The notes under the pieces were generated by a model. It did no database searches. It was not told the DNA's origin and saw only the letters and a list, made by a program, of their open reading frames with translations. From positions 1 through 23,901 of IMG/VR virus record IMGVR_UViG_3300025102_000288: a DNA stretch of 23,901 nt; one strand, 5' to 3'. Below, piece by piece: positions 6,826 through 23,901 of the stretch. Each line of letters opens with the position of its first letter. The first letter of the stretch is position 1. The DNA comes from a virus. Both the position numbers and the translations under genes were made by a program.

Positions 6826-6854
6826 ATACAATCACATAGTAAAACAGAAGTCAA
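6826..6854 (-). promoter_or_regulatory. Possible promoter for the 6795-5208 cluster
   Basis: Minus strand -35 TTGACT (6849-6854) is good, but the -10 at a 17-bp spacing is poor (TTGTAT, 6826-6831). The -35 begins four bases after the terminator T-run, as in the other terminator-promoter pairs here. Confidence 0.4.
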
Positions 6855-7485: not shown

Positions 7486-7513
7486 ATATTATAGCCAAAT
7501 TTTTTTACGTCAA
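7486..7513 (-). promoter_or_regulatory. Sigma-70-type promoter for 7444-6957
   Basis: -35 TTGACG (7508-7513) overlaps the TGA stop codon of the RHH gene; -10 TAATAT (7486-7491) at 16 bp, and the perfect TATAAT (7488-7493) overlaps it at a shorter 14-bp spacing. Confidence 0.65.
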
Positions 7514-7793: not shown

Positions 7794-9686
7794 TCATTTA
7801 GCCGTTCCCCAGTCGGGGCCAACTTCAATGTCACACTTACTCGGTATTTCTAATTCTACCGCAGTTTCCATCATCTGCGAAACAGTTTCTGCATCTTTTA
7901 AGTCTTTTACGGACATTGCTATCTCGTCATGTATTTGTATGAGCGGTATACGGCCTGTGTTATATATATTAATCATGGCTTTTTTGGTCATGTCTGCTGC
8001 TGAGGCCTGAATTAATCTATTCAGGGCCTTGTAGGTATACGCACGCTTCAGGCGTGTGGTATCGCCATACTCTTGCACCGCTTCGCGGTACGGGAGCGCT
8101 TTGTTCATCTCGAATGTATCGGGCTCCCACAGATCAAAACGACACTTACGGCCCAGCAACGAGCGTATAGAGCCGCTGCTGCTCTTGTCGTTCAGTCTAT
8201 TCTGTACCCCTGTCATTAGCATCTTAACGAAAGGCACACGTTTATGGTACTGACGCACGAGCTCTTTGGCCTCATCTAGCGAGATATCCAGTTGGTCAGA
8301 CATCTTGCCAACCCCCATGCCGTACATCAGGCCCAAGTTTATTGTCTTTGCTTGCTTACGGGGTATCTGTGCCATTTCGGCAACCATTGTATGGAAGTCC
8401 ATGTCGGGATTGTTCCGATAGCCGTGGACAAACTCCTCTACACCGTCCAGCGTGAGCCCTTTGCTTTTGCCATACACGTACGCATAATGGACCAAGATCC
8501 GTGGTTCCTGTTGCGAGAAGTCAATCGCAGCCCATTGTTCGCCCTCTTCAGGCAGAAATAAGCTACGTATCATAGGACCAAGCTCAGGATCCCGTGCTGG
8601 AATCTGCTGTAAGTTTGGGTTATTCATAGATATACGCCCTGACACGGTACCGCCGTCATCGGAGCGTATTTGATTTATATGGCTATGTATGCGTCCGTCA
8701 GAGTGACAATGCTTCATAATAGTATTAATAAAGGTGCCCGACGTTTTATTTAGGTTACGCGCTTGCACAATTAACTGCGGAAGTTTGTGGCTGTGATCGC
8801 TCAAAAATTGTTTCGTGAATGATGGCGCCCCTTTCTCTGTGCGTGGGTAATCTATGCTCAGAGCCTCAAAGGACTTCGCTATGGAGGCAGCAGCCCATAT
8901 TTCTATGTCATGGCCCACAAGTTTCTTAATGTCCCCCAGCACCTCTTTTTCGCGCTTCAGGAGCGAATTACGTGTCCGCTCAACCTTATCTTGATCCACA
9001 CGGACACCGCGCCATGTCATATCTATCAGGCAAGGTAGGAGCGCGAGCTCAAGATTAGCGATGGGCCACAGATCTTCTTTACCCAGCTGACCAGATAAAT
9101 AGTTCCAGAGTTCGAGTGTGAGCTCGGCGTCACCCTCAGCGTAGGGCCCGACATACATGGCTGGCATCTTCCAGAGCTCTGCTTTTGGGTCCAGACCAAA
9201 ACCACGTGCCGCTTCTATCAGGTTCTTCTCAGACTTGACTTTACCTAAATGATCGTAGGCCAGCGCGTTTAGACTGTAGCTAAAGCGGTTCTCGTCCAAG
9301 AGCGAGGCTATGAGCATAGTATCTATGATGCGTCCGTTGATCGTGAAACCCATGCGACGTATCCAGCCAGCATCGTACTGGGCATTGTGCATGATTTTGT
9401 CTGCTGGGCACTCAAACACTTTCTTTAGCCACTTGTTTACCACACGCTCGTCAAGATTGCCGCCATACTTGTGACGGATTGGTATATATCCTGACCAATC
9501 ACTCACAGCTACGGCATAGCCAACGACCTCTCCATCGCCAGTTGCCCAACCAGCTCCCATGGTCTTTATGTTTGGATCGCGTGTTTCGACATCTATAGCT
9601 ATTTGCTTGGCGTCAAATATGTTTGGCAGCTCACTAGGCGGAAGCCACTCAGACTTTGGCGTGTCAAACGCCAACTGCAACGCCAT
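7794..9686 (-). CDS. polA: Family-A DNA polymerase with 3'-5' exonuclease (Leu at the 762 position)
   Basis: The replicative DNA polymerase, 630 residues, lacking the 5' nuclease domain as usual for phages. Proofreading domain: Exo I D32-x-E34, Exo II N101-x3-D105, Exo III Y182-x3-D186. Polymerase: motif A DFSQQEPR (D389), motif B R443-x3-K447-x3-L451-x3-Y455, motif C HDE (586-588); all catalytic residues are present. Position 451 corresponds to Phe762 of E. coli Pol I and is Leu here (codon 8334-8336). In marine viruses this position varies among Phe, Tyr and Leu and is used as a marker of polymerase type and replication lifestyle. The ATG overlaps the stop of the DUF6378-like gene by one base (TAATG), and the gene ends the replication operon before a strong terminator. 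Confidence 0.97.
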   Translation of the reverse strand: MALQLAFDTPKSEWLPPSELPNIFDAKQIAIDVETRDPNIKTMGAGWATGDGEVVGYAVAVSDWSGYIPIRHKYGGNLDERVVNKWLKKVFECPADKIMHNAQYDAGWIRRMGFTINGRIIDTMLIASLLDENRFSYSLNALAYDHLGKVKSEKNLIEAARGFGLDPKAELWKMPAMYVGPYAEGDAELTLELWNYLSGQLGKEDLWPIANLELALLPCLIDMTWRGVRVDQDKVERTRNSLLKREKEVLGDIKKLVGHDIEIWAAASIAKSFEALSIDYPRTEKGAPSFTKQFLSDHSHKLPQLIVQARNLNKTSGTFINTIMKHCHSDGRIHSHINQIRSDDGGTVSGRISMNNPNLQQIPARDPELGPMIRSLFLPEEGEQWAAIDFSQQEPRILVHYAYVYGKSKGLTLDGVEEFVHGYRNNPDMDFHTMVAEMAQIPRKQAKTINLGLMYGMGVGKMSDQLDISLDEAKELVRQYHKRVPFVKMLMTGVQNRLNDKSSSGSIRSLLGRKCRFDLWEPDTFEMNKALPYREAVQEYGDTTRLKRAYTYKALNRLIQASAADMTKKAMINIYNTGRIPLIQIHDEIAMSVKDLKDAETVSQMMETAVELEIPSKCDIEVGPDWGTAK

Positions 9687-9940
9687 TATTTTTCTCCCCC
9701 AAGGGCGCCGTAGCCACAGACATCGAGCCAGCTGTCCTCATGGTCTGGTGTTTCTATAAGGCGTGATAGCTTGACCGCTATCATACATTGATAGACTTGC
9801 GATACAGTTACCTCTTTCTCTAGTATAACTGACCACATCTTTGCTATGCGTTTGTGGTTCTCGTGGGCATCACCGTAAGCTTTGGCCCGTGGGCCGTTAA
9901 TCATCTTCTCAGCTTTCTCAAGTATTTTCTTCCTGTTCAT
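9686..9940 (-). CDS. DUF6378-like small phage protein, 84 aa
   Basis: An all-helical 84-residue protein. RAKAYGDAHENHKRIAKMW at residues 18-36, MIAVKLSRL at 53-61 and HEDSWLDVCGYGAL near the C-terminus are the blocks of the DUF6378 family common in phages. Its pattern (E/K-rich helices and a D-x-x-GY end) recalls MazG-like all-alpha NTP pyrophosphohydrolases, so nucleotide-pool control is possible, but catalysis is not shown. It overlaps the helicase stop (ATGA) and the polymerase start, and is therefore made together with the replisome. Confidence 0.8.
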   Translation of the reverse strand: MNRKKILEKAEKMINGPRAKAYGDAHENHKRIAKMWSVILEKEVTVSQVYQCMIAVKLSRLIETPDHEDSWLDVCGYGALGGEK

Positions 9941-11460
9941 ATTATGTAACTCCTCAATGCGTCTTCTGGCTCGATTAAATATAAGTTTTTTTTAGTTCGT
10001 GTTACACCAACGTAGAATACACGGTGCAGTTCGTCAGGGTCACTCTCTGCTGCTTTTGAGGCGGCAGGAGATATATCGGTGAATAGCACAACGTTTTCGG
10101 CCTCGCCACCTTTTGATCCGTGGATCGTGGATAGTTGTATACGAGGCGTGCTGTTGAACTTCTCACCGCGTCGCAACAGCGCTGTAATATACGCACGCTC
10201 GCTGTCGGGCATTTTATCCATGGCTTCGTGCCATATCATGTCCTTTGTGGCCAGTAGACCATGATGCTGCTGGAGCTCCTCAAGACCTACTGTTTCATCG
10301 TCCGCTAGATGTGGTAGCTTTTTAAACCCACGCTTTACACGGTTTCCCACAGACATATACGCATATACGACACGCGCTATGGGCGTGGCTATCGCACGGC
10401 CTTTACGCATTTGTTCCCAGCCGTTGACCGCCTCACTTATTTTTTGTGAGATGGACCGATGGCCGTGGTACGCAAACAGATGGCCCCGACCACGTAATGT
10501 TTCTACCATATCCGACAAGAAGTATCCCGCTTGCGCCAGCACCAGCCATGTGCCCTCAGAAAAGTCTAGGTCATTTATGTCATACACACGCTTGAACGTG
10601 CCCTCATCAGGACGCGGTAGATATGTTTTAGGTACGCGCTTGTGTATTCGCTTTGATATGCGTGACGCTATGGGGTGTATGTTTTGTGGTACGCGGTAGG
10701 ACTGCTCAAGCACCTCGTACCCACCATCAAGACCGATGAAGTGTTCTACATCAGCTCCAGCCCACTTGTATATAGCTTGGTCATCGTCGCCAGCACAGTA
10801 GATCTTTTCAGAATATTTCTCTATGACATGAGCTACATCCCATTGTAGCGGCGATAGATCTTGTGCCTCATCAATAAAGCTAACGCTAAGGTTAGGACAG
10901 AAACGTGAGCTCTCGTTTACAAACATCTCCAGCATATCGGTAAAATCATACAGACGCAGACGGTTCTTATAACTTTGTAAGGACCGCGCTACATAGGATA
11001 GTGTTACCCAATCCACCGTACTATCTGATTTATTGTATTGTTCTTTTAGAGATACCTTACGTAGCCGTGCTAAGTTTATGATGTTTAGGTAGGGGTCACT
11101 ATTGTTTGACTTATCCAATATGCTTTCATCTTCGTTCACTTTCTCCACACTAATAGTAATACCTATAGCGTTAGACAAATCACGATAGTGCTCAGGTTGC
11201 ATGATTTGTTCGGCACGAATACCCGACAGCCGTAGGGCAAAACTGTGTAAGGTACGAAACCATGGTAGCTGGCTTTCGTTAAAACCAAATCGCTGACACG
11301 CACGATCTACCGCTTCATAAGCCGCTTGGCGTGTAAAAGCAAAGTATCCTATCTTAGAGGGGGGTATACCTTGCGCTAACGCTTCATCGACTTTATTCAG
11401 TAGTGCTGTTGTCTTCCCTGTACCCGGTGGCCCGTATATTCTGAATATCTTTGTTTGCAT
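9937..11460 (-). CDS. UvrD/Rep-like superfamily 1 DNA helicase
   Basis: A compact 507-residue 3'-5' type helicase. Motif I GPPGTGKTT (10-18), Ia AFTRQAA (41-47), II DEAQD (197-201), III GDDDQAIYKWAGA (224-236), IV QSYR (253-256), V STIHGSKGGEAENV (444-457), VI VFYVGVTR (481-488) are all intact. It would unwind DNA in replication or recombination. It lacks the long 1B/2B insertions of UvrD (about 720 residues). The ATG at 11460 is required, since Walker A begins at residue 10; the first 68 bp therefore double-code with the end of the HTH gene. No strong ribosome site is seen, so coupling to the upstream gene is likely. Confidence 0.95.
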   Translation of the reverse strand: MQTKIFRIYGPPGTGKTTALLNKVDEALAQGIPPSKIGYFAFTRQAAYEAVDRACQRFGFNESQLPWFRTLHSFALRLSGIRAEQIMQPEHYRDLSNAIGITISVEKVNEDESILDKSNNSDPYLNIINLARLRKVSLKEQYNKSDSTVDWVTLSYVARSLQSYKNRLRLYDFTDMLEMFVNESSRFCPNLSVSFIDEAQDLSPLQWDVAHVIEKYSEKIYCAGDDDQAIYKWAGADVEHFIGLDGGYEVLEQSYRVPQNIHPIASRISKRIHKRVPKTYLPRPDEGTFKRVYDINDLDFSEGTWLVLAQAGYFLSDMVETLRGRGHLFAYHGHRSISQKISEAVNGWEQMRKGRAIATPIARVVYAYMSVGNRVKRGFKKLPHLADDETVGLEELQQHHGLLATKDMIWHEAMDKMPDSERAYITALLRRGEKFNSTPRIQLSTIHGSKGGEAENVVLFTDISPAASKAAESDPDELHRVFYVGVTRTKKNLYLIEPEDALRSYII

Positions 11461-11602
11461 TTAACTCGTCTATTTTATTTACTATGACACGGACACGTTC
11501 GCGTGACAGCCCGTACTTCTTTCCGATAGCGGTAAGAGTCATGCCTCTATGTTTTCTAAGGTTGTACATCTCCTTGTTGCGCTCTAAAAACTTTAAATCC
11601 AT
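11393..11602 (-). CDS. Small sigma-70 region-4-like HTH protein, 69 aa
   Basis: Residues 21-41 (MTLTAIGKKYGLSRERVRVI) match the helix-turn-helix of sigma-70 region 4, including the SRERVR recognition helix. Regions 1-3 are absent, so it is not a full sigma factor; it could bind -35-like DNA as a regulator or interact with RNA polymerase. The ATG at 11602 has AGGG at 7 nt; a TTG 13 codons upstream is an alternative. The C-terminal 22 codons overlap the helicase gene in another frame. Its place in the middle of the replication operon would link gene control to replication. Confidence 0.75.
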   Translation of the reverse strand: MDLKFLERNKEMYNLRKHRGMTLTAIGKKYGLSRERVRVIVNKIDELNANKDIQNIRATGYREDNSTTE

Positions 11603-11606
11603 GTGC

Positions 11607-11867
11607 TTACCCTGATATGTCGTGTATAAAATAGTCTTCAAACTCTTTCATGTTACCGTATCTCTTAATAAAGATAGGCGTCTTTTCTCCTACCCATGAT
11701 CCGATAACATTAAAATTAAAAAACTCTAACGCTTCCTCATACGTCATTCCGTCACGCCTACACAGTATAGCAATACACTCATCTTTATCATACGCTATAA
11801 TATCTTCCTGACCACAACGTTGCGCCACACCGAGAAACGCTTCATCAAATCCGTCTGCTTTTAACAT
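11607..11867 (-). CDS. Conserved-type small phage protein, 86 aa
   Basis: An 86-residue alpha/beta protein with blocks F(D/L)-EAFLGVAQRCGQEDIIAYD near the start, LCRRDGMTYEEALEFFNFNV in the middle and a G-S-W-V-G-E-K-T-P motif at about 57-65. I have seen this pattern often as an unnamed phage protein near replication genes; the function is unknown. The ATG overlaps the primase stop by one base (TAATG), and the next gene follows after 4 bp. Confidence 0.78.
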   Translation of the reverse strand: MLKADGFDEAFLGVAQRCGQEDIIAYDKDECIAILCRRDGMTYEEALEFFNFNVIGSWVGEKTPIFIKRYGNMKEFEDYFIHDISG

Positions 11868-13411
11868 TAAAACACCTCTTTGTTTTCTTGAGCACCAAAA
11901 TCAGGAGCGTTGAGCTCCACGTTTACAGCATCAAAGGACGGTATCTGCCATACGCGGATAGGCCGTCTTTTGATAGCTAGAACTACACTTTCCCCACCCA
12001 TATCGCGCAGACGCTGCGCTATCTTGTGGCTCTTATACTCAAAAAACTTGTTGCGTTTTAGAAACGCATCAAAGTCTTTTAGTCGAAAGTATGTTTTTTG
12101 TTGTTCTTCATCGGTCCATGGACGCTTGAGTAATATCTCCTCTTTATCCTGTGCCTGTTGCATATGGCGGCAGAACTCCTCAAGGTAATCATAAAACTGG
12201 CCTGTAATACTGGCGTCCTGTGCTACCTCTATAATAGCGCTTTCATTGTCTTTCATCTCTTGCATCAAGCCCCCTATACGGTTTTCCCATAGGATCTTTG
12301 ATACAGAACGTGGCATGAAGTTTAGTTGCTCCATGCAAGAGCGTTGAAAGGTAGATTGATTAAGTAGCGCATCGGTGTCCATCTCCAGCGGCTCACCGTT
12401 TACATCAACAAACCACACAGGCGGTGTAGAGTTATATTTACGTAAGTTTGCAATTACAGCGCCCTGTACGGCTGCTCCTACACCGTGTTTACGTGTAAGG
12501 CATAGTGTTTTATTGCAATGCGCGTTGATGGGCGCGTCGCTACATTTGTACACGTAATCTTTCTTTTCAAGCTGCTTTGCTACAATGTTTACCTCATTTA
12601 GTGGCAGAGGCGGCTCTAAATACTCCATATTGTATTTCAATATCTCGGACTCCCAGCTGTCTGGGTAGGCCTTGCGTAGATAGACGCCCAAGTTAAATAG
12701 GCCATTGTTACGACCGCCCTCTGATATTTTGTTCTTTGCTAATATCTGTAGGCAAGGTGGTCCATCTGTAAGATGATGCTGTTCCGTATCGCCACCTATC
12801 TGTAGCTTGGTTACTTGCTCAGGGGTTTGCTTATATTGTTCATAGAGTTCTATAAACTCGTCTAAGGTGGCGCTGGTGCCATCATCTTTGATAGCATAAC
12901 GCAGACCGTCTTCACTATTGTAGTAAGGCAAGTTAAGAAAGTTGCCCACATCATCGCGGTCTAAATGTAATTTTATCTGCTTTGGAAAGATCTCACTGCC
13001 ACCATATCCTAGTGCAGCGGACACCTGTTGTAAGGTAAACTGCATATCCTTGGCGTCAATCCACTCTGTTGTAAATAAAAAACAGTGTGCCCCGCCTGAT
13101 TTGGATCGACATATAACCAGTGGCAGTTTAAGTTTTCTAATTTTATGTATTAGTGTTTTGTGGTCTAGGGGGTACTGATCAACATCAATACACCCCCAAA
13201 CACATCGGTTGTCTTCATTGATAGGTATGATACCAACAGCCCTACCTTTACCTGACAAGTGCCCTTCCCACAGATCCTTGGTCCGTGGTTCGCGTACTAT
13301 TGCAGCACGGCCCGTGTTCTTACCGTTTAGTTGCTTTTTATCTATCTTGAACGTGCCGTAGGCTAGTTGCAGACCGTTGAAGATTGCGGCAAATTTTTCT
13401 ATTGATGACAT
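11867..13411 (-). CDS. Archaeo-eukaryotic-type primase with Cys-rich C-terminal region
   Basis: A 514-residue AEP (PrimPol-type) primase. Motif I is CIDVDQ (D76, D78), motif II is SKSGGAH (S103 to H109), followed by the EIFPKQ segment (140-145) and GNFLNLPYY (156-164). Residues 218-310 contain PPC (C220), GRNN (233-236), and C290, C299, C304, a spacing that recalls the iron-sulphur C-terminal domain of the large primase subunit PriL; this is an inference. The C-terminal part (about 400-490) is helical with a basic end. M5 at ATG 13411 has GGGAG at 7 nt and is chosen over ATG 13423. It makes primers for PolA. A hairpin and a short frame precede the start. Confidence 0.9.
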   Translation of the reverse strand: MSSIEKFAAIFNGLQLAYGTFKIDKKQLNGKNTGRAAIVREPRTKDLWEGHLSGKGRAVGIIPINEDNRCVWGCIDVDQYPLDHKTLIHKIRKLKLPLVICRSKSGGAHCFLFTTEWIDAKDMQFTLQQVSAALGYGGSEIFPKQIKLHLDRDDVGNFLNLPYYNSEDGLRYAIKDDGTSATLDEFIELYEQYKQTPEQVTKLQIGGDTEQHHLTDGPPCLQILAKNKISEGGRNNGLFNLGVYLRKAYPDSWESEILKYNMEYLEPPLPLNEVNIVAKQLEKKDYVYKCSDAPINAHCNKTLCLTRKHGVGAAVQGAVIANLRKYNSTPPVWFVDVNGEPLEMDTDALLNQSTFQRSCMEQLNFMPRSVSKILWENRIGGLMQEMKDNESAIIEVAQDASITGQFYDYLEEFCRHMQQAQDKEEILLKRPWTDEEQQKTYFRLKDFDAFLKRNKFFEYKSHKIAQRLRDMGGESVVLAIKRRPIRVWQIPSFDAVNVELNAPDFGAQENKEVF

Positions 13412-13473
13412 ACTTTCTCCCATAAGGTGGGGCGATGGACTAATATCTTTAAATCCTCTGTTCGGAAAACCAT
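13399..13473 (-). CDS. Possible 24-aa leader peptide before the primase
   Basis: A short frame from ATG 13473 to a TAG 13 bases inside the primase gene, preceded by AGGGG. Its start codon lies in one arm of a 10-bp stem. It could couple translation of the primase to a leader, but may be chance. Confidence 0.25.
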   Translation of the reverse strand: MVFRTEDLKILVHRPTLWEKVCHQ

Positions 13474-13494: not shown

Positions 13495-14304
13495 TTAGAA
13501 CGGTATCTGATCTTTTTCGCCGCTCTTAACATCTTCATTCTCACGCTTAACTTCAACGTTGCCCGACTGGACACTCTCGGAGAATGATTTTGCCTGCTCA
13601 TATATAGCTAAGTTATTAGAAAATTGAGCTGGATCCTTCTTTTGCGTTTCCGCATCAAGGAGTGGACCATCTAGCTGCATTTCCCAGCCGTGCCATGAGC
13701 CTTTGTCATTAGACTCGGCTAACGTTTTAAGACGAAACTTGTACGCAAAACGTGCAAACCCATCTTTATTACACTGCGCCATAATCATGCTGTTAAACTT
13801 GCGTGATTTTTTAAGCTGCGTGGACTTCATGGGTATCAACGCTGTTTCGCCTTTTCCGTCCTCACCAATGACCAAGACAAAATGTTGATGCGTTTCTTCA
13901 ATATAGTCTCCACTACCGTCGGTGCAGTAGTCTTTATTGTCCTCTGTGGACCGTTTTGTCTCAGGACACTCCGCTTGTGTCTTATAGACCGTAGGAGCGC
14001 CGCTCCCTTGCCCTCTGGGGGCCCAACGGAGAAATTCACGCTGATAAGCTACCGGAACGACTACAATGCCTTCCTTACCGCTGTATAGCGCTTCTGTGAC
14101 ACTATTATATATGTCACCCTTTTTACCATCGAGCTTGTCCATCATTGGATCTACGCCAGATAGTATCTTAATAAACGGTAAGGCAAGATCATCTTTACCG
14201 ACGTTCTCGTTTCCCTTTCCCGCATCTTTTTGAAGTTGTGCAAAATCAAATGCGGCAACTTCTGTGGCCTTCTTTTCAGCCACGGCTTTGCTTGCTTCAG
14301 CCAT
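13495..14304 (-). CDS. SSB-like protein with acidic IPF tail
   Basis: A 269-residue protein. The N-terminal 30 residues are Ala/Lys-rich, the middle (about 45-220) has beta-strand segments consistent with an OB-like core, and the end is charged and finishes in GEKDQIPF, closely matching the DDDIPF tip by which bacterial SSBs recruit partner enzymes. It lies between the primase and a DUF7173-like gene, where a single-stranded DNA-binding protein is expected. ATG 14304 has AAAGGAG at 7 nt; the longer open frame upstream is only overlap with the previous gene. I infer an SSB role from tail and context; the core is not a classical SSB. Confidence 0.68.
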   Translation of the reverse strand: MAEASKAVAEKKATEVAAFDFAQLQKDAGKGNENVGKDDLALPFIKILSGVDPMMDKLDGKKGDIYNSVTEALYSGKEGIVVVPVAYQREFLRWAPRGQGSGAPTVYKTQAECPETKRSTEDNKDYCTDGSGDYIEETHQHFVLVIGEDGKGETALIPMKSTQLKKSRKFNSMIMAQCNKDGFARFAYKFRLKTLAESNDKGSWHGWEMQLDGPLLDAETQKKDPAQFSNNLAIYEQAKSFSESVQSGNVEVKRENEDVKSGEKDQIPF

Positions 14305-14887
14305 TTTTAGCTCCTTTAGCTTTAGTGATAATTGCTCTTTGACCAACATACGCCCCAAAGAGGTCCATGGGGAACTCGTCCCCGTTCTCCACACGTTCCT
14401 TAACAAAGGATCGTAAGGTGCTCGGTTCAATCTTTTCTGTTTGATCCGCGACAAAGCCTTCTTTTTCGGCAAAGGCCTTGAACGAAGACGCTTGATCATC
14501 TTCTCCGCGTCCAAACTGACAAGATATGATGTTTTTAATAATGTCGTCATAGCCATGCTCCCTAAGCCAATCATAAGCAGCTGGACGATTATCTACCTTA
14601 ATAGACGCGCCATACTGCGGTTTTATAGTTACTTTTGATCCGTCAAGAAGAGTAAACTCCATAGAGTTAGCTTCTGTCATCAATGCAGGTAAGTCTTCGT
14701 CTGTCATTTTTAACAGCTTCTTTTTTTCTTCTTTGAGCCGTTCTTCGAGCTCTTTCACAAAAGCATCTTGTTTTATGATAGCTTCGGCAAATCCAGTAAG
14801 CGTGGATAGGTCTTCATTATCTAACGTATGCTTGGAAAATAAGGAGCCTTGATTGGCGTCCTCTTGCAGTTTCTTCATTATGTCCAT
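14297..14887 (-). CDS. DUF7173-like phage protein, 196 aa
   Basis: First gene of the replication operon. A coiled-coil segment (about residues 35-62) is followed by a beta part (MEFTLLDGSKVTIKPQYGASI, about 78-97, quoted in two pieces: MEFTLLDGSKV and TIKPQYGASI) and the block WLREHGYDDIIKN (about 107-119), then FGRGED and a TLRSFVKER segment near the end. This order fits the DUF7173 family of phage proteins, which occur beside replication genes; the function is unknown. The ATG at 14887 has AAAGGA at 6 nt and lies 54 bp from a good -10 box. The stop overlaps the SSB-like gene start by 8 bp. Confidence 0.78.
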   Translation of the reverse strand: MDIMKKLQEDANQGSLFSKHTLDNEDLSTLTGFAEAIIKQDAFVKELEERLKEEKKKLLKMTDEDLPALMTEANSMEFTLLDGSKVTIKPQYGASIKVDNRPAAYDWLREHGYDDIIKNIISCQFGRGEDDQASSFKAFAEKEGFVADQTEKIEPSTLRSFVKERVENGDEFPMDLFGAYVGQRAIITKAKGAKNG

Positions 14888-14929
14888 ATATCGTCCTTTC
14901 TCTTTCGCGATTAAAAACCTTTTCAGGTC

Positions 14930-14957
14930 TTGACAATTCCATATATAAGCGTATAAA
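14930..14957 (+). promoter_or_regulatory. Sigma-70 promoter for the SNF2 helicase
   Basis: -35 TTGACA (14930-14935, perfect), 16-bp spacer, -10 TATAAA (14952-14957). The expected start lies about 15 bp before the SNF2 ATG, so the leader is very short. Confidence 0.8.
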
Positions 14958-14970
14958 TTCTTATAGTCAA
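14942..14970 (-). promoter_or_regulatory. Sigma-70 promoter for the replication operon
   Basis: Minus strand: -35 TTGACT (14965-14970), 17-bp spacer, -10 TATATA (14942-14947). It is interlocked with the plus-strand promoter: each -10 lies within the other's spacer and the two -35 boxes form the ends CTTGAC...GTCAAG. Confidence 0.78.
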
Positions 14971-14979
14971 GAGGTAAAA

Positions 14980-16428
14980 ATGAAAAAATATAAATTTAAA
15001 ACAAAACCATTTAAGCACCAGAGTAGAGCGCTTCGTGATTCGTGGGACGCAAAGTATTATGCACTATTTATGGAGATGGGTACAGGTAAATCGAAGGTGG
15101 CCATAGATACTATGGGGGCCTTGTATACAGAGGGTAAACTAAACGCCGCGCTAATTATATCGCCCAAGGGTGTATATGATAACTGGGTGCAAGGCGAGAT
15201 ACCGACACACCTATCGGATAAAATAGAGACAAACATAGTACGCTGGCAGCCGTCTAGCGCACAGTGGTTTCAAAAACAAATGAGAACACTTGTGTACGAA
15301 AAGTTTGATGGCCTAAAGATATTTGTTATGAACACAGAGGCGCTGTCCACGCCACGTGGAGCTCAAGCAGCGTTTACTTTCTTAGAGGCAAACGATGAAA
15401 ACATTGTGATTGTTGATGAGAGCACATCTATAAAAAATAGATCCGCTAACCGCACAAAGAATATCATGCAGCTGAAAAGCTTATCTAAATACCGACGTAT
15501 TCTTACAGGATCCCCAGTAACACGCAGTCCTATGGATTTATACAGTCAGTGTATGTTTTTGTCTGTGCTGGCCTTGAACTTTAAAAGTTTCTTTGCGTTT
15601 CAAAACCGATACGCACTGGTGCAAAAGCGCACTATGGGCCCACGGTCTTTCAATGAGATCGTGGGATACCGCCGGTTAGACGAGCTTAACAAGAAACTAG
15701 AGAGCTTTAGTAATCGTGTGCTGAAAGAAGATTGTCTGGATCTGCCAGATAAGATGTATACAAAGCGCCTTGTACCGTTGTCCGAGGAGCAAAACAAATC
15801 ATACAAAGAAATGAAACGGCTGGCTTTGACTAAGCTACACAATGGTGAGCTGGCCACGACACAAAGTGTGCTTACTCAGATTATGCGGCTGCAACAGATA
15901 TGCTGTGGTCACATACAGGATGATGAGGGTAATTTAGTGAGTTTCGCAAACGGGCGCCTGAAGGAGCTGCTCGATATATGTGAAGAAGTACAGGGAAAAG
16001 TTATCATTTGGGCGACATTTACATATGACATCCAACAGATAGCGAAAGCCCTGCGCGACCGCTTCGGGCCCGAAGCGGTTGCAACCTACTATGGTGAAAC
16101 CCCACAAGAGGAGCGCCAAGAGATTGTACGACGTTATCAAGATCTTGAAGATCCCCTGCGCTTCTTTGTGGGGCAACCAAGAACAGGGGGATACGGTATT
16201 ACTTTGACGGCAGCAAATACAGTGGTGTATTATAGCAACAGTTATGACTTAGAGATACGCTTGCAGTCCGAAGATAGAGCACACCGTATTGGTCAGACCA
16301 ATAAAGTTACGTACGTAGATATTATATCGCCGGATACGGTAGACGAGAAGATAGTTAAAGCACTTAAAGAAAAGATAAACTTAGCCCAACAGGTGTTAGG
16401 CGAAGACGCTAGGTCTTGGCTTTCTTAG
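14980..16428 (+). CDS. SNF2-like superfamily 2 helicase/translocase
   Basis: The only plus-strand gene. 482 residues with all SF2/SNF2 motifs: Walker A EMGTGKSK (32-39), DExx-type box VDES (145-148), motif III LTGSP (175-179), motif V GGYGITLTAAN (403-413) and motif VI QSEDRAHRIGQ (429-439), the latter typical of SNF2. Such phage proteins are ATP-driven DNA translocases thought to remodel replication or recombination intermediates. GAGG lies about 5 nt before the ATG. A 22-bp perfect palindrome sits at 16058-16079. The last 20 bp overlap the end of the minus-strand 41-residue gene. No terminator is visible after it. Confidence 0.95.
   Translation: MKKYKFKTKPFKHQSRALRDSWDAKYYALFMEMGTGKSKVAIDTMGALYTEGKLNAALIISPKGVYDNWVQGEIPTHLSDKIETNIVRWQPSSAQWFQKQMRTLVYEKFDGLKIFVMNTEALSTPRGAQAAFTFLEANDENIVIVDESTSIKNRSANRTKNIMQLKSLSKYRRILTGSPVTRSPMDLYSQCMFLSVLALNFKSFFAFQNRYALVQKRTMGPRSFNEIVGYRRLDELNKKLESFSNRVLKEDCLDLPDKMYTKRLVPLSEEQNKSYKEMKRLALTKLHNGELATTQSVLTQIMRLQQICCGHIQDDEGNLVSFANGRLKELLDICEEVQGKVIIWATFTYDIQQIAKALRDRFGPEAVATYYGETPQEERQEIVRRYQDLEDPLRFFVGQPRTGGYGITLTAANTVVYYSNSYDLEIRLQSEDRAHRIGQTNKVTYVDIISPDTVDEKIVKALKEKINLAQQVLGEDARSWLS
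16058..16079. repeat. 22-bp perfect palindrome in the SNF2 gene
   Basis: ACCGCTTCGGG joined directly to CCCGAAGCGGT, perfect dyad with no spacer. It encodes the stretch around RDRFGPEAV (about residues 359-367), between helicase motifs IV and V. No T-run follows. Confidence 0.9.
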
Positions 16429-16534
16429 TCTTTAGTACCGACCGAATAGTTTTGGCTTGCTTCGCGTGTAGCTTAGAAGCTTTGTTTAAGCCTTTCACTA
16501 CTTTCTTTAATTTTTTTTGATTATTTTTTTTCAT
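16409..16534 (-). CDS. Lysine-rich small phage protein, 41 aa
   Basis: A 41-codon frame. The peptide begins MKKNNQKKLKKVVKGLNKAS and continues with KLHAKQAKT, a basic amphipathic helix. I recall similar short Lys-rich peptides in marine phage genomes near virion genes. The ATG lies 5 bp after the stop of the 16540-16836 gene, and the gene ends inside the opposing SNF2 gene. It may bind DNA or a virion partner; no function is known. Confidence 0.6.
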   Translation of the reverse strand: MKKNNQKKLKKVVKGLNKASKLHAKQAKTIRSVLKTKKAKT

Positions 16535-21549: not shown

Positions 21550-23901
21550 TTATCCACCCGAAGGAGTTACATTTATAAATTCATTTATGTCAACATTGTC
21601 GGGTCTACCACTCACCTCTACTTGTTTAAACCTTGTTTCAAAAGATTTTCTAAGGGCCGTATACCCGTCTCTTACTGCTGTAAATTTAGATAAATCAGCT
21701 AATAATTCTGTTTTTCTTGTCATTTTAAGAGGGTTGCTTAAAAGAGCGCGTAGCGCAGTTATTTCTTGGTTAAAGAAAGCCTCAGTTAGCTTAATCTTAT
21801 CTAAAGCGTCTTCTTTTCCTGCAAAAAATTGTGCCGGCTGCGGGAGTCTTGCTTCAATTCTCTTACGCATATCTTGATCGGTTTTGCCTTTTACACTCGA
21901 CATAATTACTAATTCAGCGTTTAGATTAAATCCTTCTAATAGATTTTGCGCTTTAGCAACATTTGGAAAGGGCTTACTAATCATAAAACTCAATAACTCT
22001 GCGCTTTTGTTAATAAGTTGTCCCACCGCCGCAGGTGTACCAACTCCTTTAAGAACATCAATTTCATTTATTAATTTTTCATACGTAATATCGTCAATGT
22101 CACTGTTTTCTTGAACCTGACTTATAGCAGCGTTAAAATTAGGCGTTGGACTGAAAGCTCCGCCCGTACCACCCCCCGTATAATTTTCTGGCAAGGTGTA
22201 TCTTTGCTCCACGGGTAATCCTTGATTAAGAGATTGACGTTGTGCGATAGCATCTTCCCACTCTTTTGGCAGACTTCCTCCCTGTACTACAGCGCCGTCA
22301 ATGTCACTCAATGTATCTTTCGTAAAATTGTTAATTACAAAGTGAATAGCGTTGTTTTGCGCCGGAAGAGTCTGGCCAAGTCCATAGGCAAGCGCTAAGT
22401 CTAAACCTTTTCCTTCGCCAACTTCTGTTAAAAATTTTGAAAAAGACTGCTTTTGACCAATACTATAATCAATTAGATTTGTGCTGGCCAACTCAACATC
22501 TGTTTTTCTTTTTTCTAACTCATATAACTTTTCATCTAAGGCTTGTTTTTCTGTGCCCTGCGTTCTATCTAACGATATCTTAATTTTGTCAATTTCACGA
22601 TCTAAGTTGTTTTGCAACTCAGTAAAGTTTTGATTTAATTTTACAATACTTTTGGCGTGAGCAAAGCCTTTCTCTTGTTTTTCTAACTCATTAGTATGTT
22701 GTAGGTTAAGTCGATCTGAAGCGAGCTTTGAAGTTAATCGTATATCAGCTCTGTTTCTAAAAAACTCTAAATCGTTTTGTTCTTTTGTAAACTTTTGTTC
22801 TAATTCTAAAATTTCTTTTTGATTAATTTGACCTTGCTTTAATTTTAACGTTTCTAAATTAATCCTATTTTTCTGAAGTAACTTTTCAATAACTTTTTTA
22901 TCTCTCAAATCCACTTTGGCCCCAGCCTCTTTTTCCTCTCTTTTTAGCTTTGATTTCAAAGTCTCCATAGATGTCTCACGGAGATACTTTAGATCTGCCG
23001 CTTTAGCGTCAGCCTCTGCTTTAGCCTTCTGTGATTTTAGGGCTGCGGCAGTTTTTTGCTCACTTTGCAACTGCGTTTCAGCAGACTGTAGAGCAGCAAG
23101 ACCTAATGCTCTTTTCTCTTTGTCTGCTGCTTTTTCCGCTTCTAATTGTGTTTGGGCTCTAGCTGAAATACGGTCAGGCAGTTGTGTGGTCGTAGCGGCC
23201 ATAGCTAGTCTCTCCGCAGGACTTAAACCGGGTCGCTCACCGGGCATCGGTGCTGCAAAAGCCAAAGCGGTCTTAGCAATATCAAATAACATTTGTGCTT
23301 TTGTTAAGTTTTTTTGTTTTTGTGCAGCATCTGGATCGGCCCCAAATTGACTATACAAGGCATATTTTTCATCTAATATTTGTTTAAGGCGGTTTCTTCC
23401 TGTTCCCGGAGCAGCTTTCTCTTCAGCTACTGCTTCTTTTGCGGCTAAACCAACAACCGTTCCTTTAAAGGGTTGAGACAAATCAACCCCGAGCTGGTCA
23501 AGACGAAAGTTTCCTAGCCCCGCGACCCTATTTGTGTTTACTGGTGCGAAGTATTGTATCGGGCGGACTTCCCCGCCTTTGTTAAAATTTACGGGAGCAG
23601 TCCCGCCGGCCTCCATTGGTGGAGGTTCGGGAACCGTGGACATTATGCCATCGGCCATTGGCCCCTCTATGGGCTGCGTCATCTCTTGCTGTGCAAGCTG
23701 ACCAATACCTTGATCGACGTTAGCCAACATCATAACGGGCTGTACTAAGGTCAACACGGACTCTGGTGTCTGGCTCGCGTCACCCGGCCCGACAACTCCT
23801 GCTAGTTCTTCGCGTCTTTCTTCTACTGTTGCCTGATCGCCACGCATAGTGTTCATTACCTGTTCGTAGTTCTGTGCCTGATCTAAGTCACCGATACCAC
23901 C
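21550..23901 (-). CDS. Coiled-coil putative virion protein, 5' end outside window
   Basis: At least 783 residues; the frame remains open to the right edge (15 codons beyond the ATG at 23856), so the true start is not in the window. The first 140 residues are Gly/Pro/Gln-rich and include FNKGGEVRPIQYF near residue 110, a motif style of marine phage structural proteins. A long coiled coil with Lys/Glu/Gln/Leu repeats spans about 230-480, followed by a mixed helical domain to the end. It is coupled to the 1571-residue gene (1-bp gap). Together they probably form part of the internal core or the tail-ejection apparatus. Confidence 0.7.
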   Translation of the reverse strand, partial: GGIGDLDQAQNYEQVMNTMRGDQATVEERREELAGVVGPGDASQTPESVLTLVQPVMMLANVDQGIGQLAQQEMTQPIEGPMADGIMSTVPEPPPMEAGGTAPVNFNKGGEVRPIQYFAPVNTNRVAGLGNFRLDQLGVDLSQPFKGTVVGLAAKEAVAEEKAAPGTGRNRLKQILDEKYALYSQFGADPDAAQKQKNLTKAQMLFDIAKTALAFAAPMPGERPGLSPAERLAMAATTTQLPDRISARAQTQLEAEKAADKEKRALGLAALQSAETQLQSEQKTAAALKSQKAKAEADAKAADLKYLRETSMETLKSKLKREEKEAGAKVDLRDKKVIEKLLQKNRINLETLKLKQGQINQKEILELEQKFTKEQNDLEFFRNRADIRLTSKLASDRLNLQHTNELEKQEKGFAHAKSIVKLNQNFTELQNNLDREIDKIKISLDRTQGTEKQALDEKLYELEKRKTDVELASTNLIDYSIGQKQSFSKFLTEVGEGKGLDLALAYGLGQTLPAQNNAIHFVINNFTKDTLSDIDGAVVQGGSLPKEWEDAIAQRQSLNQGLPVEQRYTLPENYTGGGTGGAFSPTPNFNAAISQVQENSDIDDITYEKLINEIDVLKGVGTPAAVGQLINKSAELLSFMISKPFPNVAKAQNLLEGFNLNAELVIMSSVKGKTDQDMRKRIEARLPQPAQFFAGKEDALDKIKLTEAFFNQEITALRALLSNPLKMTRKTELLADLSKFTAVRDGYTALRKSFETRFKQVEVSGRPDNVDINEFINVTPSGG

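Follow-up and report, generated by a model that had tools for sequence, protein, structure and literature searches.

The window analyzed here is a 23,901-base IMG/VR viral record whose long genes all read leftward, with an SNF2-type helicase gene as the sole exception. This gene (14980..16428, + strand; 482 amino acids; PF00176, PF00271, phrog_62) is the only large rightward gene. The leftward side is headed by a DUF7307 gene resembling Pam3 gp33 (14297..14887, - strand), with a Pam3 gp34-like gene (13495..14574, -; its upstream start possibly over-called), a primase (11867..13423, -; phrog_21866), an 82-amino-acid sigma-region-4-like protein (11393-11641, -; PF04545, E = 1.2e-6, above the cut-off, with no other sigma domain), a UvrD/Rep-like helicase (9937..11460, -; phrog_1967), and DNA polymerase A (7794..9686, -; phrog_17). 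This gene content justifies the label of replication operon, and domain matches, phrog matches, and synteny all place the junction, as the preliminary description had it, between the SNF2 gene and that operon. The divergent arrangement of SNF2 against primase, helicase, and PolA is maintained across relatives, which also have the one-way genome organization. Cumulative GC skew, used as a check for a replication origin, makes no turn at the junction in the window or in relatives G001 and G002. At the far end of the SNF2 gene, a possible short lysine-rich leftward frame at 16425-16533 (-), found by eye, meets the SNF2 stop codon practically without a gap, leaving no obvious terminator where SNF2 and the late genes converge.

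The junction itself contains two opposed, interlocked promoter sequences at 14930-14970. The predicted SNF2 promoter consists of a -35 hexamer TTGACA (14930..14935, +) and a -10 hexamer TATAAA (14952..14957, +) separated by a 16-bp spacer, and the predicted replication-operon promoter consists of TTGACT (14965..14970, -) and TATATA (14942..14947, -) separated by a 17-bp spacer. The preliminary description of these elements as TTGACA-N16-TATAAA and TTGACT-N17-TATATA is exact base for base, and the coordinates confirm that each -10 lies within the opposite spacer and that 41 bp are common to both promoters. The outer ends read CTTGAC (14929-14934) and GTCAAG (14966-14971), also as described. Counting about 8 nt past each -10, the SNF2 transcript is predicted to start at A-14965 (+), with the RNA 5′ end AGUCAAGAGG, and the replication transcript at G-14934 (-), with the RNA 5′ end GUCAAGACC. 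The Shine-Dalgarno-like site of SNF2, AGAGG (14970..14974, +), overlaps the opposing -35.

Sigma70-type hexamers 16-18 bp apart are present on each side, with 11/12 consensus matches rightward and 9/12 leftward, and the interlocked pair, at 20/24, is the best such pair in the window. Shuffling the whole 24 kb gave scores of at least 20 in 5 of 200 trials, and shuffling the 92-bp intergenic region did so in 1 of 20,000; CTTGAC-N25..37-GTCAAG occurs once in the window against 0.02 expected. Scanned for promoters in general, the window returned 28 promoter-like sites against 27.1 expected; because this is no excess, single promoter matches weigh little and conservation must decide. A strict TTGACW-N15-19-TATAWW scan of the 56.5-kb relative G001 found the junction site only. 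Conservation among relatives far outweighs the single-sequence statistics as evidence for the pair.

Relatives of the SNF2 protein were drawn from viral contigs and phage records, and their sequences upstream of SNF2 were compared. In a tree built from 86 SNF2 proteins, the window falls in a main clade of 47 rows, and a second clade of 13 rows includes phage 023Pt_psg01. Both TTGAC hexamers are intact in 38 of the 47 main-clade rows, spanning 38-42 bp end to end (40-41 bp in 35 rows, 42 in 2, and 38 in 1), while the leftward hexamer stands alone in 8 rows and neither is present in 1. The minus -35 is accordingly retained in 46/47 rows and the plus -35 in 38/47. Since the losses hit the SNF2 side and the replication -35 stays, replication transcription appears to be the more constrained function. 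The second clade carries the pair at 37-38 bp in 10/13 rows. No TTGAC pair was seen in the other lineages of the SNF2 tree, including HTVC027P, HTVC023P, and DSL-LC04. A related TTGAC...GTCAA pair was noted by eye upstream of SNF2 in single-cell SAR11 genomes.

Both promoters score highly in most distinct intergenic regions of the main clade. Among 31 non-redundant sequences of the 41-bp geometry, mean information reaches 1.93 bits at the rightward -35 and 1.75 at the leftward -35, 0.92 and 1.20 bits at the corresponding -10s, and 0.53 bits at the remaining positions within the 41 bp. TTGACA is invariant on the plus side and TTGAC on the minus side of this set; the plus -10 is conserved as tATAnn, and the TATA core of the minus -10 has two invariant and two strong positions. 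The last T of the -10 hexamers is not conserved, which suggests that one promoter side may be weak. As read from the alignment, this information pattern is that of two sigma70-type promoters, unlike a protein operator with a conserved interior, and both promoters appear to be under selection in relatives.

A within-genome control covered intergenic TTGAC promoters inside the one-way operon of eight large relatives and the window. None of the window's other intergenic TTGAC promoters has GTCAA at its start site, and the motif is usually absent from such promoters in the relatives as well. The exceptions are two orthologous groups of sites found in close relatives, where TTGAC-N32-GTCAA stands at unidirectional operon promoters (G001 23733-23774 and 27345-27386, with orthologues in G005 and G006); the window counterparts of the two G001 sites lack the second arm. 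GTCAA as a general start-site motif of this phage's promoters was considered and rejected, being mostly absent elsewhere. Given this absence, GTCAA at the divergent junction is retained in its capacity as the opposing -35.

The inverted repeat CTTGAC-N31-GTCAAG could also be an operator for a dimeric DNA-binding protein, with the promoter likeness secondary. Its dyad ends are perfect, and the two orthologous promoter sets in G001, G005, and G006 carry TTGAC-N32-GTCAA at unidirectional sites. This explanation is nevertheless highly improbable, as the spacing of the pair differs by lineage (37, 38, 40, 41, and 42 bp) whereas the promoter spacers stay within 16-19, the -10 cores are conserved as well, and most other TTGAC promoters are missing the second arm.

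Further leftward-operon TTGAC promoters of the window are found at 7513, 6854, 3021, and 777 (-), and the one at 6854 (-) directly follows a terminator-like hairpin at about 6888-6858. In several of the other TTGAC promoters, in the window and in large relatives, TATGGGAT occurs after the -10. A search of eight relatives, run without a positive control, found no T7-type RNA polymerase.

The leftward RNA, taken from its predicted start at 14934, would read GUC followed by AAGACCU-GAAA-AGGUUUU, a predicted 5′-terminal hairpin of the replication mRNA (14914..14931, -) that has covariation and a model hit behind it. The AAG of the hairpin is the complement of CTT in the SNF2 -35 region, and its first stem bases double as that -35. 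Across 33 distinct leaders, 93.3% of stem cells are paired versus 80.2% in shuffles. Two-sided changes number 20 versus 5.2 in shuffles (0/500), and sliding the partner gives no more than 7. The counts depend on the alignment, and relatedness inflates shuffles of this kind; the evidence lies in the two variable pairs. G-U or U-G pairs account for about 11 of the paired cells and would read A-C on the other strand, so the hairpin signal belongs to the leftward RNA. The fold of the window leader alone is not exceptional (z = -1.64), and Rfam contains no match for the leader element. Searched with a model of the element, the window, G001, and G002 show confident matches only at the junction, with a weak extra hit in G002 (E = 0.06). 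Judged from these comparisons, the replication mRNA should begin with a conserved 5′-terminal hairpin, its exact 5′ end being predicted.

The hairpin and the rightward promoter are separable. Three relatives (L065, L069, and L073) have lost the rightward TTGAC and retain the hairpin, and the second clade shows the reverse, with a TTGAC pair and no hairpin. Part of the left hexamer's conservation (CTT) may serve the RNA hairpin in addition to sigma. It is therefore conceivable, though unlikely, that the leftward promoter alone matters and that the left TTGAC is kept mainly as the source of the replication mRNA's 5′ end and stem, the rightward promoter being marginal. The covariation of the hairpin and the better retention of the minus -35 in the main clade are consistent with this proposal. 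However, the 31 sequences show no variation at any of the six plus -35 positions, even in the ACA, which is dispensable for the stem, and they also conserve the plus -10 core. The three relatives without a plus TTGAC also indicate that the hairpin does not need it, and the second clade keeps the pair where there is no hairpin to maintain.

Downstream of the hairpin, a conserved UAAYNACGAA stretch precedes the Shine-Dalgarno site. The boxA consensus of rrn- and lambda-type antitermination is GYTCTTTAANA (PMC5725501). The window matches it at 8/11 positions and 7 of 49 leaders match at 10/11, where none is expected from letter shuffles; the listed 10/11 leaders (L042, L044, and L057) all come from a single sub-lineage, and there is overlap between the motif and the stem. 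In these leaders and their kin, the 10/11 match is GGTCTTTAACA after the hairpin, and the consensus is gamma-proteobacterial. The boxA-like motif is a possible antitermination site in this one sub-lineage only.

The extent of the RNA polymerase footprint on promoters is well established, and footprints predicted from -55 to +20 around the starts at 14965 and 14934 overlap by ~72 bp. With each -35 placed over the opposing start site and each -10 within the opposing spacer, one bound polymerase would exclude the other. The earlier claim that two polymerases cannot occupy both promoters is thus very likely right, joint occupancy being sterically implausible. The consequence drawn from it, that SNF2 and the replication genes are mutually exclusive, does not follow, since exclusive occupancy is not exclusive expression; without feedback, polymerases would alternate and both transcripts would be made. 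SNF2 also adjoins replication genes in essentially all relatives compared, which fits co-expression better than exclusion. Nor is the idea of a simple switch sustained, as no conserved operator lies between the hexamers in the 31-sequence set and no regulator tracks the site.

A true switch would involve a phage or host regulator that favors one orientation and times SNF2 and the replication operon apart. The candidate regulator is the 82-amino-acid sigma-region-4-like protein of the same operon, which belongs to a family that recognizes TTGAC. In addition to its PF04545 match, primase and UvrD flank its gene in 42 of the 94 loci tested, and 7 of the 8 large relatives gave hits. It was undetected at this position in the other 52 loci, several of them interlocked (L039, L070, L071, L057, and the second interlocked clade among them), and there is no extra conserved operator through which it might act between the hexamers. 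A regulated switch is for these reasons improbable, even slightly more so than a junction in which only the leftward promoter matters. The same protein as an obligatory partner of the junction was rejected as a general explanation, being undetected in many interlocked loci.

The E. coli bidirectional promoters that were tested are too weak for competition unless one side is strengthened (PMC12825309). Both -35s at the junction are near consensus, which makes polymerase competition plausible here. In HTVC027P, a distant relative without the TTGAC pair, early genes are all of unknown function according to its transcriptome report (PMC12753301), the text of which assigns no class to the SNF2 gene.

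The junction is probably a pair of genuine opposed sigma70-type promoters served by the host RNA polymerase, forming a compact dual promoter that alternates and rations polymerase and sets a transcript ratio with no switch. The rightward promoter would produce an SNF2 mRNA with a very short leader, and the leftward promoter would head the replication operon; judging from gene orientation, it may also drive transcription of much of the one-way genome. Polymerases would clear in seconds to minutes and could alternate, and replicating genomes would presumably supply many copies of the site. Alternation and competition would then establish a ratio between the SNF2 and leftward transcripts. Most likely, the layout came about when two promoters were packed into about 90 bp, and it would persist because an indel almost anywhere inside it damages one promoter or both.

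It is more doubtful, though still worth considering, that the junction is an integrated control node, in which reciprocal use of -35 and first transcribed bases is combined with shielding or antitermination of the leftward mRNA by its 5′ hairpin. With no dedicated regulator, such a node would ration polymerase between a helicase that remodels DNA and a replication operon as long as the genome. If the dual-promoter reading is correct, steric sharing of one site can persist over long divergence, and marine phage annotation gains a recognizable start point of replication transcription with a 5′ hairpin. The geometry, present in dozens of uncultured phages, offers a naturally replicated test of RNA polymerase competition that includes lineages with one side lost or the spacing altered.

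Overlapping divergent promoters are a known class. In the classical examples, divergent transcription units have overlapping promoter elements; the phage junction differs in its reciprocal overlap of -35 and start site, in a fixed 40-42 bp kept across a phage clade, and in a 5′ hairpin that shares bases with one -35. A limited literature search found no description of a conserved reciprocal -35/start-site layout together with a hairpin sharing -35 bases. What is new here is a replication mRNA predicted to open with a 5′ hairpin, the first stem bases of which also serve as the SNF2 -35.

The best precedent for the role of this hairpin is a 5′-terminal stem protecting mRNA. The stabilizing stem-loops of the ompA and papA leaders, described in papers cited by PMC3997798, likewise lie within a few nt of the 5′ end; the phage hairpin is predicted, its stabilizing role is putative, and its stem bases double as part of an opposing promoter. 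The invariant C before TTGAC and the TATAT-like -10s resemble the sigma70 consensus of the alphaproteobacterium Sinorhizobium, CTTGAC-N17-CTATAT (PMC2873474), which may not be that of the host. The plus-side spacer, at N16, is one shorter than in this consensus.

Bidirectional promoters have, by definition, start sites separated by 7-25 bp and -10 elements that overlap reciprocally or are shared (PMC10268837). The predicted phage starts lie about 29-31 bp apart, outside this range, and the -10s are separate, with 4 bp between them (14942-14947 and 14952-14957). The bidirectional promoters of E. coli and Salmonella described by Warman, Grainger, and colleagues (PMC12825309, PMC10268837) are likewise opposed sigma70 promoters within one footprint, in which one polymerase excludes the other, and they often lie between divergent genes, as the phage pair does.
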